Source: Gemmatimonadaceae bacterium
GTDB taxonomy: Bacteria; Gemmatimonadota; Gemmatimonadetes; Gemmatimonadales; Gemmatimonadaceae
Length of the DNA stretch: 64,000 bases
Assembly (NCBI GenBank): GCA_040882285.1
Contig: JBBEBQ010000025.1
Span: forward strand, 1 to 64,000
Direction of reading: 5' to 3'
Under the pieces are notes generated by a model, which did no database searches, was not told the DNA's origin, and saw nothing but the letters and a program-made list of their open reading frames with translations. Positions within the stretch are counted from its first letter, which is position 1. Each line of letters starts with the position of its first letter. The translations under genes were made by a program, and so were the position numbers. Shown here in pieces: positions 13,529 through 62,675 of the stretch.

Positions 13529-13570
13529 GTGACTAGTGACTAGTGACTAGTGACTAGTGACTAGTCACTG
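13529..13570 (-). repeat. Heptamer array of five GTGACTA units between ftcD and suhB
   Basis: Five uninterrupted GTGACTA units (13529-13563) are followed by GTCACTG, with the palindrome GTGACTAGTCAC at 13557-13568. Read on the minus strand, the direction of both flanking genes, it is GCAGTGAC followed by TAGTCAC units. The TGA stop codon of the inositol monophosphatase (13567-13565) lies in the first of these. The GCAGT edge is the same one that begins the right arms at 39388, 44265 and 60769. Confidence 0.88.
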
Positions 13571-14377
13571 CTCCACGGCCTCGTCCAACGTGCGTAGGAG
13601 CCACGCGTGCATTTCGCGTCCGCCGGCAACGTACGCGCCGAAGCCGGGAATCGCATCCGTGCCCTGGAGGTCGGTGACGAGGCCGCCGGCTTCGCGGATC
13701 AGCAGAACCCCAGCGGCCACGTCCCACGGCGCGAGGCCGAGCTCCCAGAAGGCATCGAACCGGCCGCACGCGGTGTCGGCGAGATCGAGCGCCGCCGAGC
13801 CCGCGCGGCGGACGCCGGCGGTGCGGCGAGTGACCAGCGCGAACTGCCGGAGAAATTGCGGCAGATGCTCGAGCTGCTTGAAGGGGAACCCGGTGCCGAT
13901 CAGCGCGCGCTCGGGCGCGGTCTCGTTCGATACGCGGATCGGCTCGCCGTTCAGCGTCGCGCCGCAGCCCGCGGACGCGGCGAACAGCTCGCGCGTTTGC
14001 ACGTTGAGAATCGCGCCGGCGAGCAGGTCGTCTCCGTAAGCGGCGCCGATGGACACGGCGTAGTGCGGGAAGCCGTGCAGGAAGTTCGTGGTGCCGTCGA
14101 GCGGATCGATGATGAACGACAGCCCGGCGCCCGAGACTGCCTCGGGGGAGAACTCCTCGCCGATGATGATCGCGCCGGCGAACTCTTTGCCGAGCACCGA
14201 CAGGATGTGTTGCTCTGCGTTCCTGTCCACTTCGCTGACAAAGTCGGCCGCGCCCTTGTGCTCCCACACGAGCGAGGACGAAGTCGGCGCGGCGCTCCGG
14301 ATGATTTCGCCGGCGCCCAGTGCGGCCGCCTGCACGGTGCGCGCGAGGCGGGACAGCTCAGCGGCGTCGAGGCTCAC
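13565..14377 (-). CDS. suhB: Inositol monophosphatase family protein
   Basis: Mg-dependent, Li-sensitive-type phosphatase that hydrolyses myo-inositol phosphates or related sugar phosphates. The two metal motifs are intact: GEE near residue 74 and IDPLDGTTNFLHG near 90-102, plus the C-terminal WDVAAG near residue 220. The 270-residue length is standard. The stop codon is supplied by the adjoining repeat. The exact substrate is not decided by sequence; SuhB-type use of myo-inositol-1-phosphate is the default reading. Confidence 0.9.
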   Translation of the reverse strand: MSLDAAELSRLARTVQAAALGAGEIIRSAAPTSSSLVWEHKGAADFVSEVDRNAEQHILSVLGKEFAGAIIIGEEFSPEAVSGAGLSFIIDPLDGTTNFLHGFPHYAVSIGAAYGDDLLAGAILNVQTRELFAASAGCGATLNGEPIRVSNETAPERALIGTGFPFKQLEHLPQFLRQFALVTRRTAGVRRAGSAALDLADTACGRFDAFWELGLAPWDVAAGVLLIREAGGLVTDLQGTDAIPGFGAYVAGGREMHAWLLRTLDEAVEQ

Positions 14378-14409
14378 GGGATCCGTCTGTTTTGTCGTTC
14401 AGGCTGGAC

Positions 14410-14650
14410 TCTGCGTAAAGGCGACCTCCACGAATTCGGAGGAGGGATCCGAGCTGTTGGCGGTGAGTCGAACAATCAGTTGAGAGCGGGAAGTAAGACA
14501 AGCGGAGCACCAGTGTTGAGCCATAAGTACTGGCACGGCTCAGAACTTGGCAGTCCCGAAGCGTACTTCCTGCTGTCCACTAATCAACTCACGGCTAACA
14601 GCTTGGATTCCCTTGCCACCCAATCATGGGCAGCGTACAAGCAAGCTAAC
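14410..14650 (+). repeat. ~240-bp imperfect palindrome filling the suhB-trpS gap
   Basis: Nearly the whole gap folds on itself around 14529. Paired segments found by eye: GAGCC (14518-14522)/GGCTC (14537-14541); GGAAGTA (14489-14495)/TACTTCC (14564-14570); AGCTGTTGGCGGTGAG (14452-14467)/CTCACGGCTAACAGCT (14588-14603), with two mismatches; and GGGATCC (14444-14450)/GGATTCCC (14605-14612). Weaker similarity extends outward on both sides. Paired coordinates keep a constant sum (29055-29059), so this is one continuous structure. The stretch is visibly less GC-rich than its neighbours. It could be a MITE-like element or a large folded RNA leader of trpS. Confidence 0.65.
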
Positions 14651-14668
14651 GCCTAAATTCTCTCCCCA

Positions 14669-15641
<973 letters not shown>

Positions 15642-15652
<11 letters not shown>

Positions 15653-27834: not shown

Positions 27835-29769
27835 GTGACAGCGCGACAGCGCGTCTCACGCACGCGAGCGTATCTGGCGACGGCGGTGGCGATCGCGGCC
27901 GCCGCGTGGGCCGTCGCAGCGGCGCTGGCAGTGGGTGCGGCACTCGTGCTCGCCGCGCGCGTGACGGGAAGCGAGCTGCCCGGTGCCTTCTCGCTCCTGC
28001 CGGGCGTGGCGGCGCTGGTTGCGGCGGGCGCGATCGTGTATCGCGCGTGGCCGGGGCGCTCGTTGGAGCGCGTGGCGCTGTGGGTCGAGGAGCGCCAGCC
28101 GTCGCTGGCGTTCGCTCTGGTGACCGCGAGCGACCCGACGGTGGCGGAATCGTCCGCGCTCGAGCGCGCCGCCGAGTTCGATCCGGTGAAGGTCGTGCGC
28201 CGTCCGGTGACGACGATGCTGCTCGTCGCCGGCGCGGCAGTGGTCTTCAGCGGCGCCGCGGCGTGGGCGCTCGCGGGTACGGAAGGAGCTCGCGACATGC
28301 TCGCGGGGCGCGCGTCCACCAGCTCGCTGCGCGCGGCAGCCGCGCCCGAAGATCCGCTGGCGGGCCTGCGCGCGACGATCACTCCGCCCGCGTACTCGCG
28401 GCTGCGCGCGACCGGTGTGGACGATCCGTCGTCGATCGCCGCGCTCCGCGGGAGCCGTGTCACCGTGACCGGGCGCGGCTCCGGAGTCGCCGCGTTTCTC
28501 GGCGACGCGGGGTTGACTGTCAGGGACGGACGCCGATGGGCCGTCGCGCTGACGATGCCGGCGCGGCCGGTGGCGCTCACGCTGCGGCACGGGGAGCGGC
28601 GCCGGGTGATCGTGCTCGAGCCGAGGGCGGACGCGGCACCCAGGGTGCGGCTCACGTCGCCCGCGCGCGACACGATCATGCAGCGGGCCGGCGGCGTCGT
28701 GCGCGTGGCCGCGACCATCGAAGAGGACATCGGGATCGCGAGCGGGCACATCGAGTACATGCTCAGCTCGGGCGCGGAGGAGACGTTCACGGCGCGCACG
28801 GTGGTCGTCGGCAGGCGGGAGTTCCGCGGCGCCGCCCGTGGCGATCTCTCGACGACGATGGATCTCTCCTCGTTGAAGCTGGGTCCGGGCGATCTCCTCT
28901 CCATCCGCGCGGTGGCGCGCGACGCGAATACCGTTTCCGGGCCGGGAATCGGCGTGTCCGACACGCGCACCTACCGCGTCGCCCGGCGCGACGAGTACGA
29001 CTCGCTCGCGGTGGAAGCCGGCGCGCCGATCATCCCGGAGAGCACGGTCGTCAGCCAGCGCATGCTGATACTCCGCGCCGAAGCGCTCCTGCGCGAGCAG
29101 CCGTCGCTGGCGCGCGATTCCGTTCTCACGCGCGTGCGCGGCATCGCCACGGACCAGATCCGGCTGCGCGAGCGCGTGCACGACATCATCTATCCGGCGC
29201 ACACGCACGCGGAAGGAGAGGTTGAGGCGGAAGGCGAGCCGGAGGACACCGAGGAGGCCGGGGCGCCGGTGAATCCCCACCTCAAGACCGCGTACGAGGA
29301 GATGTGGAGCGCGTCGCGGGAGCTGCAGATCGCGGACGCCGCCACCGCGCTCCCGTTCATGCGTGCGGCGGCGGCGGCGCTGGACAGAGCCCGCCTCGCG
29401 AACCGGTATTACCTGCGTAGCGGCACGGCGCGCGTGGTGGTGGACGTTCCTCGCGTGCGGCTGCAGGGGAAGGAGACGGGCGCGTCGACCGCACGGAGCC
29501 CGCGCGCCGCAGAGAGGGCTCGGCAGGAAATCGCCCGCGACTTCACGCGGGCAGCCGCCATTCGCGATCCGGTCGCGTCCGCCAATGAGCTGTCGCTCGT
29601 TCGCGTGCGTGCGCTGGCCGAGCTGCCCGAGCTCGCGGCGGCGCTCGAGCCGGTGATCGACGCGCTTCGCCGCGGCCGGGATCCGCGCGCCGCTCTGGCC
29701 GCCGCCAGAAGCGAGCTGGACCGGGCCGAGGCCGCCGCGCGGGACGGCGCGAGCTGGAGCCGGTGGTGA
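27835..29769 (+). CDS. Large membrane protein of the Bat-type operon, DUF4175-like
   Basis: 644 residues. Start GTG 27835 is chosen because GGGAAGG lies 7 nt upstream; the frame is open earlier but inside the previous gene. Two N-terminal membrane helices (AYLATAVAIAAAAWAVAAAL and a second near 58-76) are followed by RSLERVALWVEERQPSL and a third helix near residue 130. A long periplasmic region includes a beta-sandwich-like part (~190-330) and a helical acidic stretch. This resembles DUF4175-type proteins found beside MoxR/DUF58/DUF4159. Function unknown. Confidence 0.6.
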   Translation: MTARQRVSRTRAYLATAVAIAAAAWAVAAALAVGAALVLAARVTGSELPGAFSLLPGVAALVAAGAIVYRAWPGRSLERVALWVEERQPSLAFALVTASDPTVAESSALERAAEFDPVKVVRRPVTTMLLVAGAAVVFSGAAAWALAGTEGARDMLAGRASTSSLRAAAAPEDPLAGLRATITPPAYSRLRATGVDDPSSIAALRGSRVTVTGRGSGVAAFLGDAGLTVRDGRRWAVALTMPARPVALTLRHGERRRVIVLEPRADAAPRVRLTSPARDTIMQRAGGVVRVAATIEEDIGIASGHIEYMLSSGAEETFTARTVVVGRREFRGAARGDLSTTMDLSSLKLGPGDLLSIRAVARDANTVSGPGIGVSDTRTYRVARRDEYDSLAVEAGAPIIPESTVVSQRMLILRAEALLREQPSLARDSVLTRVRGIATDQIRLRERVHDIIYPAHTHAEGEVEAEGEPEDTEEAGAPVNPHLKTAYEEMWSASRELQIADAATALPFMRAAAAALDRARLANRYYLRSGTARVVVDVPRVRLQGKETGASTARSPRAAERARQEIARDFTRAAAIRDPVASANELSLVRVRALAELPELAAALEPVIDALRRGRDPRAALAAARSELDRAEAAARDGASWSRW

Positions 29770-39297: not shown

Positions 39298-39457
39298 GTG
39301 ACTAGTGACTAGTGACTGGTGACTAGTAACAGATCTTTTCCAGCCGATAGTGACTCATGGCCGCAAAGTGCATAGCTTCGAAGTTGCAGTTCACTAGTCA
39401 CTAGTCACTAGTCACTAGTCACTAGTCACTAGTCACTAGTCACTAATCACTAGTCAC
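39298..39457 (+). repeat. Large heptamer-repeat hairpin after priA
   Basis: Left arm: GTGACTA, GTGACTA, GTGACTG, GTGACTA and GTAAC (39298-39330). Then ~58 nt of non-repeat sequence. Right arm: GCAGTTCAC followed by nine units of TAGTCAC (39395-39457), the eighth being TAATCAC. The arms can pair over at least four heptads, and the right arm has about five units in excess. The left GTAAC edge and right GCAGT edge are shared with the loci at 44217 and 60712. It fills the whole priA-39462 gap. Confidence 0.9.
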
Positions 39458-44216: not shown

Positions 44217-44300
44217 GTGACTAGTGATTAGTGACTAGTGACTAGTAACTGCTTTCTGTTTGTTGCAGTAACTAGTCACTAGCCACTAGTCACCAGTCAC
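44217..44300 (+). repeat. Heptamer-repeat hairpin between convergent genes
   Basis: Left arm GTGACTA, GTGATTA, GTGACTA, GTGACTA, GTAACTG (44217-44251); a 14-nt loop (44252-44265); right arm CAGTAAC, TAGTCAC, TAGCCAC, TAGTCAC, CAGTCAC (44266-44300). The arms pair over 35 positions with few mismatches. The left arm is identical in unit order to the one at 60712. It lies between two genes that converge on it, with no T-tract. Confidence 0.9.
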
Positions 44301-59395: not shown

Positions 59396-60715
59396 ATGTG
59401 TTGCATGCGAAGTGAATTCCGGGTGTCCGCCATCGTGGCGATTCTCGCGTCCGCCGGCTGCGCCGCGCAGAACCCGGCCGCCGATCAATCGGGCGCGGCG
59501 ATGCAGCTCGGGCCGGCGTGCGGCACCGCGGGGCTCACGTTGCCCGCCGGGTTCTGCGCGACGATCTTCGCCGACTCCATCGGCGCGGCGCGGCACCTCG
59601 TGGTCGCGCCGAACGGCGACGTGTTCGTGGCGCTGCAGCAGGCGCGGCGGAACTCGGCGGTCGAGGGCATCCCGCCCGGGGTCATGGCGCTGCGCGACAC
59701 GAACGGGGATGGCGTCGCCGACGTCAGGCAAAGGTTCGGATCGGCCGGGAACACCGGAATCGCGCTGCACGGCGACTTTCTGTACGCCGACGTCGGCACC
59801 GCCATCGTCCGCTACCCCAAGCCCGCCGGCGCGCTGACGCCGACCGGAGCGCCGGACACGGTGGTGAAGGGGATGCCGTACACGCCGGGACACCGCGCGC
59901 GAAACTTCGTGATCGCGAGCGACGGGTCGCTGTACGTGAACATCGGCTCGCCGACGAACGCGTGCCAGGTGCAGGATCGGCAGCGCGGGTCGCCGGGAGT
60001 GAGCCCGTGCGCGGAGCTCGAGCGGCGCGCGGGGATCTGGCGGTTCGCCGCGAACAGGCTCGGCCAGGAGTTCAGCCCCGGCGCGAGGTTCGCGACGGGG
60101 ATCCGCAACGCGACCGGCCTGGCGATCAACCCCGGCGACGGCACGCTGTATGCGGCGAGTCACGGCCGCGACAATCTCTCCTCCAACTGGCCTGAGCACT
60201 TCACGGAGCAGCAGAACGCGGAGCTGCCCGCGGAAGAGCTGCTGCGCGTGACGCGCGGGGACGATTTCGGCTGGCCGTACTGCTACTGGGACGGCCAGAA
60301 GAGAGTGCGCGTGCTGGCTCCGGAATACGGCGGCGACGGCAGCCAGGTCGGCTTGTGCGCGACGAAGAGGGGGAACGTGGCCGCGATGCCGGCGCACTGG
60401 GCGCCGAACGCGCTGACTTTCTACACGGGCTCGATGTTCCCGGCGAAGTATCGCGGGGGCGCGTTCATCGCGTTCCACGGCTCGTGGAACCGCGCGCCGC
60501 TCCCGCAGGGCGGCTACAACGTCGTGCTCGTCCCGTTCACCAACAACACCAGCAACGGCGCCTGGGAAGTTTTCGCCACCGGCTTCGTCCCGGCCGACGT
60601 GCAGCCGAGCACCGCGCGGCACAGGCCGAGCGGCGTGGCGCAGGGACCGGACGGCGCGCTGTTCGTGACGGATGACGTCAGCGGGCGGGTTTGGAGGATC
60701 ACTTACCGGAAGTGA
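59396..60715 (+). CDS. Sorbosone/glucose dehydrogenase-type beta-propeller lipoprotein
   Basis: 439 residues. Signal peptide ending in lipobox (ASAGC), then a six-bladed propeller: ARHLVVAPNGDVFVAL, RDTNGDGVADV, GRDNLSSNWPEHFTEQQNAELP, DDFGWPYCYWDGQKR, and RHRPSGVAQGPDGALFVTDD. This is the PQQ-dependent L-sorbosone/glucose dehydrogenase family; PQQ use is inferred. Four Cys pairs suggest disulfides in the periplasm. ATG 59396 has GAGG at 10 nt; ATG 59405 is an alternative. Its TGA stop is inside the first GTGACTA unit. Confidence 0.82.
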   Translation: MCCMRSEFRVSAIVAILASAGCAAQNPAADQSGAAMQLGPACGTAGLTLPAGFCATIFADSIGAARHLVVAPNGDVFVALQQARRNSAVEGIPPGVMALRDTNGDGVADVRQRFGSAGNTGIALHGDFLYADVGTAIVRYPKPAGALTPTGAPDTVVKGMPYTPGHRARNFVIASDGSLYVNIGSPTNACQVQDRQRGSPGVSPCAELERRAGIWRFAANRLGQEFSPGARFATGIRNATGLAINPGDGTLYAASHGRDNLSSNWPEHFTEQQNAELPAEELLRVTRGDDFGWPYCYWDGQKRVRVLAPEYGGDGSQVGLCATKRGNVAAMPAHWAPNALTFYTGSMFPAKYRGGAFIAFHGSWNRAPLPQGGYNVVLVPFTNNTSNGAWEVFATGFVPADVQPSTARHRPSGVAQGPDGALFVTDDVSGRVWRITYRK

Positions 60716-60804
60716 CTAGTGATTAGTGACTAGTGACTAGTAACCGCCGGCTAGCGAAGCGTCTCGGTGCAGTCACTAGTCACTAGTCACTAATCACTAG
60801 TCAC
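60712..60804 (+). repeat. Heptamer-repeat hairpin with a perfect 28-bp stem
   Basis: Left arm GTGACTA, GTGATTA, GTGACTA, GTGACTA (60712-60739); right arm TAGTCAC, TAGTCAC, TAATCAC, TAGTCAC (60777-60804). The right arm is the exact reverse complement of the left over all 28 bases, including the variant GTGATTA/TAATCAC. The 37-nt interval begins GTAAC and ends GCAGTCAC. The first unit holds the dehydrogenase stop codon; it ends 3 nt before the convergent yjbQ stop. Confidence 0.95.
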
Positions 60805-60806
60805 TA

Positions 60807-62500: not shown

Positions 62501-62540
62501 GATGGTCAACCTCCAGGGTCGTCCAAATATCCCTATTCTC

Positions 62541-62568
62541 AAAGCTCAGCGCTGATGGCTGACTGCTC
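62541..62568. repeat. Degenerate heptamer repeat ANNGCTS x4
   Basis: Consecutive AAAGCTC, AGCGCTG, ATGGCTG, ACTGCTC share the pattern A-N-N-G-C-T-[CG] with period seven, in the gap between the divergent P1 peptidase and transaldolase genes. Arms are too diverged to form a strong hairpin. It looks like a decayed or variant member of the period-seven class. Confidence 0.5.
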
Positions 62569-62675
62569 ACAGCCCGGATTCCCCGTCCGCATTCCTGGAG
62601 CCACCGAGCCGCGAGACCAAGCACGAAGTTACCTTTGAGGGTATCCCGCACGACGACGCACAAGAGGCAACCGAC

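Follow-up and report, generated by a model that had tools for sequence, protein, structure and literature searches.

The palindrome preceding trpS in a Gemmatimonadaceae genome is probably a decaying member, without a gene, of a dispersed class of seven-base-periodic foldbacks

Introduction

Why should a 240-bp imperfect palindrome lie in front of trpS? The question is raised by a 64,000-nucleotide stretch of a Gemmatimonadaceae genome (the window; contig JBBEBQ010000025.1, assembly GCA_040882285.1). An initial annotation made from the letters of the window offered three answers, a MITE-like element, a decayed pair of inverted insertions or a large trpS leader RNA, and took the many compensable changes in the arms as favouring a maintained RNA fold. 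The window's own genome is a metagenome-assembled genome of 2.89 Mb (G000), which we compared with three congeners (G001, G002 and G003) and with genomes further afield.

Two kinds of bacterial DNA bear on the answer. PF05635 is the 23S rRNA-intervening sequence protein (S23p/IVP), a four-helix protein. The rRNA intervening sequence (IVS) of Coxiella, as PMC4990558 describes it, has a 28-bp inverted stem and an S23p ORF with tandem heptamers before it; the same paper cites Ralph and McClelland (1993) for the idea that the ORF has a role in mobility. The origin of rRNA IVSs together with the role of S23p, and the origin of intergenic heptameric repeats, are separate open questions, and in the open-licence literature we found no link between them beyond the heptamers inside the Coxiella IVS.

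Results

The palindrome is real and lies at the place given for it, filling most of the 291-bp spacer between two divergent genes, a suhB-like inositol monophosphatase gene (13565–14377, minus strand, start at 14377; labelled by eye) and trpS (14669–15652, plus strand). The end-to-end fold with coordinate sums of 29055–29059 that had been claimed is made by two pairs of inverted arms. The outer pair (14444–14471, plus, and 14584–14611, minus; 28 nt, 82% complementary) sums to 29055 and the inner pair (14475–14495, plus, and 14564–14584, minus; 21 nt, 81% complementary) to 29059. The left outer arm begins with the cap GGGATCC (14444–14450), and arm and cap recur in copies elsewhere in the genome (C8 and C5) and in G003; the right outer arm ends with GGATTCC (14605–14611). 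Set beside the G-quadruplex-forming GGGNATC units of intergenic heptameric repeats, the caps GGGATCC/GGAATCC are, by eye, single rather than tandem. The central loop (14496–14563) has no gene of its own and no PF05635 match, mechanical ORFs merely running through it, and the right outer shell (14612–14634) contains a side hairpin (TTGCCACCC...GGGCAGC). The whole element, which we assign to a family termed A, extends from one outer terminal motif to the other (14420–14634), limits set by alignment with its G003 orthologue and by the shell motif.

Its symmetry is far from chance. The predicted RNA fold of 14400–14660 has an energy of −110.4 kcal/mol (z −6.3), equalled by 0 of 200 shuffles, and the gapped foldback score is 54 where eight shuffles reach at most 22. 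The spacer is also less GC-rich than its flanks, as had been remarked (0.53–0.57 over the element against 0.63–0.73 in flanking 200-base windows). Rfam returned no family at gathering score anywhere in the window, and 14300–14700 held no match to a sigma-70-type promoter or an intrinsic terminator.

A DNA search of the same genome found the further copies that the initial annotation had proposed to look for. Related foldbacks adjoin thyX (C8:65692), precede tig (C5:407386) and lie between smpB and tRNA-Leu (C5:32133; gene names by eye), so that short, gene-less copies occupy non-homologous sites. G003 has an orthologous family-A element between suhB and trpS, 80% identical to the window copy, and about five further family-A sites. 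In the closest congener (G001, P6-2, JANLGX010000037.1; TrpS 96% identical) the spacer is about 90 bp long and lacks the element, and MGR_bin320 (TrpS 87%) has a different palindrome there, built of GTCAACC units. Element-free spacers are too diverged for a target-site duplication to be read, and none could be defined. The MITE-like option thus pointed in the right direction: the copies are dispersed, share a terminal motif and have no gene of their own, and a congener's spacer is free of the element.

Foldbacks of this kind are common in the genus. In samples of 462, 289, 342 and 285 kb from G000, G001, G002 and G003, we found 41, 27, 23 and 41 foldbacks, against 0, 2, 0 and 0 in shuffled sequence, or 132 against 2 over 1.38 Mb. 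A looser gapped scan was dropped, as GC-rich sequence gave it too many matches by chance (290 foldbacks in G000 against 162 in its shuffles). By a simple gene caller 112 of the 132 are intergenic, although 0.81–0.84 of the sequence is coding, and many have co-directional or convergent neighbours. Exact tandem runs are most numerous at an offset of seven bases (49, 29, 6 and 31 in the four samples), with at most six at any offset up to 13 that is not a multiple of seven; a Markov control for G000 gave none at offset 7. Within the arms, self-matching is highest at lag 7 among lags 3–15 (0.36 in family A and 0.46 in a second family, B), the accompanying z-scores being inflated because the arm copies are related. 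Families A, B and C have a common terminal motif of about 27 bp, GGCTMCNGGRATTYNNNNGGGGRATCC, which gives the copies terminal inverted repeats in common: it matches 23, 15, 8 and 12 times in the four genus genomes (58 in total) and not once in 56 other genomes, and a reversed control pattern has no match. In the trpS copy this motif is degenerate. Other Gemmatimonadota have heptamer foldbacks of their own (GGGAATC at L026, GTAGGTC at L047).

The window itself holds three further foldbacks, of (GTGACTA)n/(TAGTCAC)n, at 39298–39443, 44217–44300 and 60711–60805. The one at 39298–39443 follows a priA-like gene; in the corresponding place a family-A element is found in G003 and a (GTGATTA)n foldback in G001. 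At 62504–62602 (minus strand), a terminal-motif match adjoins half of a B-like element, perhaps a remnant.

Some sister foldbacks contain a gene. At C25:144175 the arms enclose a PF05635 ORF in G001 and G002 (L214 and L220; E-values 1e-26 and 2.7e-29), with arms of type B in G001 and of their own type in G002. G000 retains only the second half of the IVP gene that is whole in G001, and the pair catches a gene-less derivative in the making. PF05635 is present in 36 of the 41 relatives searched and in none of 14 control genomes, with 10, 10, 10 and 14 matches in the four genus genomes (44 in total). The gene is under purifying selection (dN/dS 0.05–0.11 at two orthologous sites).

Inverted arms are the rule around these genes. 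Of 66 IVP genes tried, one lay at a contig end; 48 of the 65 scored (31 in the genus, 34 outside it) have inverted flanking arms that exceed the 99th percentile of 260 cross pairs. The share is 26/31 in the genus and 22/34 in other genera, compared with 4/152 for small control genes in the same geometry (Fisher 1.6e-22); 5/31 and 12/34 fall below the threshold. In 24 of the 26 genus elements the arms are at least 82% identical over 28 nt to a foldback that lacks the gene, where shuffled arms reach at most 71%. B arms surround an IVP gene in G001 (C375), C arms in G000 (C5:295025), G001 (C214) and G003 (C172), and AGCCAAT arms in G000 (C25:172454) and at the orthologous sites of G001 and G003. 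None of the 31 genus IVP genes scored was seen within a family-A copy; family A is tied to IVP by the terminal motif and caps that it has in common with B and C.

Is the symmetry kept as RNA or as DNA? With the G003 structure as reference, 60 of 91 pairs are unchanged in the window copy and five are changed on one side and kept, while one is changed on both sides and kept, 13 are broken and 12 gapped; with the window copy as reference, nine of 79 pairs are broken and again one is doubly compensated. An RNA fold would tolerate G-T mismatches. In foldbacks between co-directional genes, read in transcript sense, G-T mismatches are as frequent as A-C mismatches (130 against 134; P=0.85), and hence the symmetry is kept in the DNA and not in the RNA. 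The compensable changes do not, therefore, speak for an RNA fold as had been supposed. Dispersed copies do covary, with 10 double-change pairs in family B against 5.3 in shuffles (1 of 500 as high; several are common to both G003 copies and hence not independent) and nine in family A against 4.3 (0 of 500 as high), which is what matched palindrome families are expected to give. The initial annotation would have withdrawn its proposals had there been neither covariation nor other copies: the copies exist, whereas the covariation, seen across dispersed copies, is that of any well-matched palindrome family.

A structured trpS leader, an attenuator or riboswitch kept by selection, is accordingly very unlikely. 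Its placement in front of trpS, the strong fold and the covariation among dispersed copies would all suit such an RNA, but the closest relative does without the element at trpS, the same family stands at the unrelated genes thyX, tig and smpB, Rfam gave no match at gathering score, and one doubly compensated pair is set against 13 broken ones, with G-T and A-C mismatches equal.

At fixed sites the repeat unit differs between genomes. The spacers at C25:175525 and C25:156800 hold (GTGACTA)n in G000, (GTGATTA)n in G001 and (AGGTATC/T)n in G002 and G003, and across the samples of G000, G001, G002 and G003 AGTGACTAG occurs 75, 3, 0 and 16 times and AGTGATTAG 9, 62, 0 and 2 times. Five sites picked from G000 alone, within C25:144001–184000 (a sixth was dropped for want of an orthologous site), have a strong foldback in 12 of 14 scored orthologous spacers, against the 15–24% of intergenic gaps that foldbacks occupy by a different detector, which makes this comparison approximate. 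At 16 sites with a foldback in at least two genomes, some of them picked for a known family-A copy, arm identity between genomes falls short of both within-element values in 25 of 38 genome pairs and is 0.70 or less in 21 of 38 (11 of the 16 sites), the shuffled level being 0.59. At C25:183319 the left flanks are 0.68–0.86 identical and the cores near the shuffled level in the comparisons with G002 and G003. Within an element the arms match each other better than they match arms taken from other elements (0 of 1,000 permutations), a hint only, since elements were picked for matching arms; two of four groups, of the AGCCAAT family, had no clear excess. A comparison of in-register with shifted arms is likewise biased, by the arm-finding procedure. 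At C25:176322, by contrast, three genomes have the same AGCCAAT foldback and G002 has none.

These observations keep another reading live, as an alternative or an addition to dispersal: intergenic addresses may be fixed and their heptamer arrays rewritten in place rather than newly inserted, by unit slippage with arm-to-arm copying or by genome-wide templating or conversion. Genome-specific units at C25:175525 and C25:156800, the differing counts of AGTGACTAG and AGTGATTAG, the occupancy of orthologous spacers, the low identity of arms between genomes, the alike flanks and unlike cores at C25:183319 and the better match of own arms all argue for it. We nevertheless consider it rather doubtful, since dispersal is needed for one family to occur at non-homologous sites (A in G000 and G003, B in G001), the arm-swap test is biased and without clear excess in two groups, some of the 16 sites were picked for a family-A copy and a sharp boundary between flank and core is clear at one site only. 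Units that are specific to a genome at fixed sites would also offer a clear example of concerted change, with no mechanism known for it.

Outside the genus the relation between IVP and foldbacks is mixed, with 22 and 2 foldbacks per 100 kb where IVP is present (two genomes) and 5 and 0 where it is absent (two genomes). A tblastn search of plasmids returned 19 records, mainly from cyanobacteria, plus Azospirillum and Bernardetia. Beside the gene, an exact offset-7 run of nine or more occurs in 12 of the 16 homologues fetched, compared with none at offsets 5, 6 and 9 and two at offset 8; in eight the inverted arms score above each of the 48 cross pairs, and one of these lies in an apparent 23S rRNA gene. 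This is the Azospirillum lipoferum 4B plasmid AZO_p2, in which a PF05635-like ORF lies inside the apparent rRNA gene (L374, 13701–15439; by eye) between inverted arms of seven-base units, where the supplied gene table has no feature.

Three cyanobacterial plasmids (L366, L371 and L372) have IVP genes near cas genes. In those of Pseudanabaena and Anabaena 90 the IVP gene is flanked by heptamers and stands between cas6 and cas4; in a Picosynechococcus plasmid the gene lies between cas10 and a cmr3-type gene, and no exact offset-7 run was found beside it. The Bernardetia plasmid (L380) has a long (GTGATTA)n array beside its IVP gene, of a unit identical to that of G001.

Discussion

The trpS palindrome is best read as a gene-less derivative of an intervening-sequence-like element. 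Copies of its family are dispersed and share their ends, sister elements enclose a gene, and the symmetry is a property of the DNA. That the palindrome is a decaying copy of a dispersed foldback we consider probable, and no role for trpS is needed. By inference, the arms would pair when the strand is single, during replication or as single-stranded DNA; the IVP protein would bind or process the hairpin and thereby allow its copying or transfer to intergenic sites, and copies without the gene, this one included, would travel in trans, in the manner of a MITE. The trpS copy is old; G003 has it too, G001 lacks it, and its pairing is being lost.

Several observations weigh against this explanation. 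The main gaps are the missing A copy with a gene and the mixed comparison of IVP with foldback density outside the genus. In addition, no target-site duplication is definable, 5 of 31 genus and 12 of 34 other IVP genes fall under the arm threshold, and heptad periodicity is weaker in A (0.36) than in B (0.46). IVP has no known enzymatic activity, so its part may be to bind the hairpin without moving it.

Two other explanations fare less well. The imperfect arms of the window copy could suggest two decayed insertion sequences in inverted orientation, as the initial annotation had it, yet the better-paired copies elsewhere are single short foldbacks, DDE_Tnp_1 is missing from the genome itself and Y1_Tnp from all four genus genomes, and we find this scarcely credible. 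A function like that of REP sequences, the palindrome being recruited between genes as a transcription terminator, mRNA stabilizer or supercoiling buffer, would fit the intergenic placement of 112 of 132 foldbacks, many between co-directional or convergent genes. Against it, the trpS copy lies between divergent genes with no terminator match, presence varies between close relatives, and G-T and A-C mismatches (130 and 134) betray no bias to an RNA strand; such a function is unlikely.

Candidate partners other than IVP were rejected. RAYT/Y1 transposases (Y1_Tnp) are found in none of the four genus genomes and in 5 of 14 control genomes, reverse transcriptase has two matches, both in G003, and DDE_Tnp_1 has three, none in the window's own genome. 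No autonomous transposon with the same ends was noticed among the GGCTMCNGGRATTYNNNNGGGGRATCC matches or in one region read.

Among known systems the rRNA IVSs come close. Those with an S23p ORF in Leptospira, Coxiella and Brucella, as described in PMC4990558, likewise have inverted terminal repeats that form a stem; the sister foldbacks share with them the S23p/IVP gene in the loop, and in Coxiella tandem heptamers adjoin that gene. The Azospirillum homologue, with its heptad-like arms in an apparent 23S rRNA gene, adds to the likeness. The foldbacks differ in lying between protein genes, in many copies that are mostly gene-less and of many heptamer families, and the trpS copy has no S23p/IVP ORF and lies between suhB and trpS, outside the 23S rRNA into which IVSs insert and from which RNase III excises them. 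Intergenic heptameric repeats including inverted pairs are known from Xanthomonas (GGGAATC) and Nostoc (PMC4692102), and the seven-base periodicity seen here, in the genome samples and in family A arms (lag-7 0.36), is a feature in common with them. Unlike those repeats, the present ones change unit between congeners at the same sites, form compound palindromes (A, B and C) with shared ends, and have PF05635 in some loops. The TAACTGA heptamers of Beggiatoaceae, cyanobacteria and Bacteroidetes (PMC4679880), overlapping bacterial groups, are likewise dispersed and intergenic, but their description is of direct repeats that may serve in translational control. The MITEs and REPINs of PMC3116915 are also short, gene-less, hairpin-forming, dispersed and presumably moved in trans; here, unlike there, the four genus genomes have no RAYT, no target-site duplication could be defined, and the candidate partner, IVP, is not a transposase.

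An IVP gene between inverted heptamer arms, many times over and with gene-less copies that have the same arms, makes one testable hypothesis for the origins of rRNA IVSs and of intergenic heptamers, so that the sister repeats tie together two long-unexplained kinds of bacterial DNA. We put it forward tentatively, as possible rather than probable: S23p/IVP would be the protein at work in heptamer foldbacks across phyla, whether it binds, copies or moves the hairpins; rRNA IVSs would be the members inserted in rRNA; the heptamers of cyanobacteria, Xanthomonas and Beggiatoaceae would be gene-less traces; and at fixed intergenic addresses the system would rewrite the heptamer arrays differently from genome to genome.

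Three minor observations follow. The ThyX ORF beside the thyX copy (L002, 1704–3056, minus strand; 450 aa) has an insert (CLSGDTLIY...NGIVTHNSQ) that we take, from its motif, to resemble an intein. In G003 about 570 bp separate smpB from the family-A element (L146; C143:10400–12000), a stretch that is missing from G000 and G001 and similar in G002. Heptamer arrays at L003 (320–598) and L004 (2484–2813) run as low-complexity open frames (VGCWLLA and SQQPTANS) and can be mis-called as genes.
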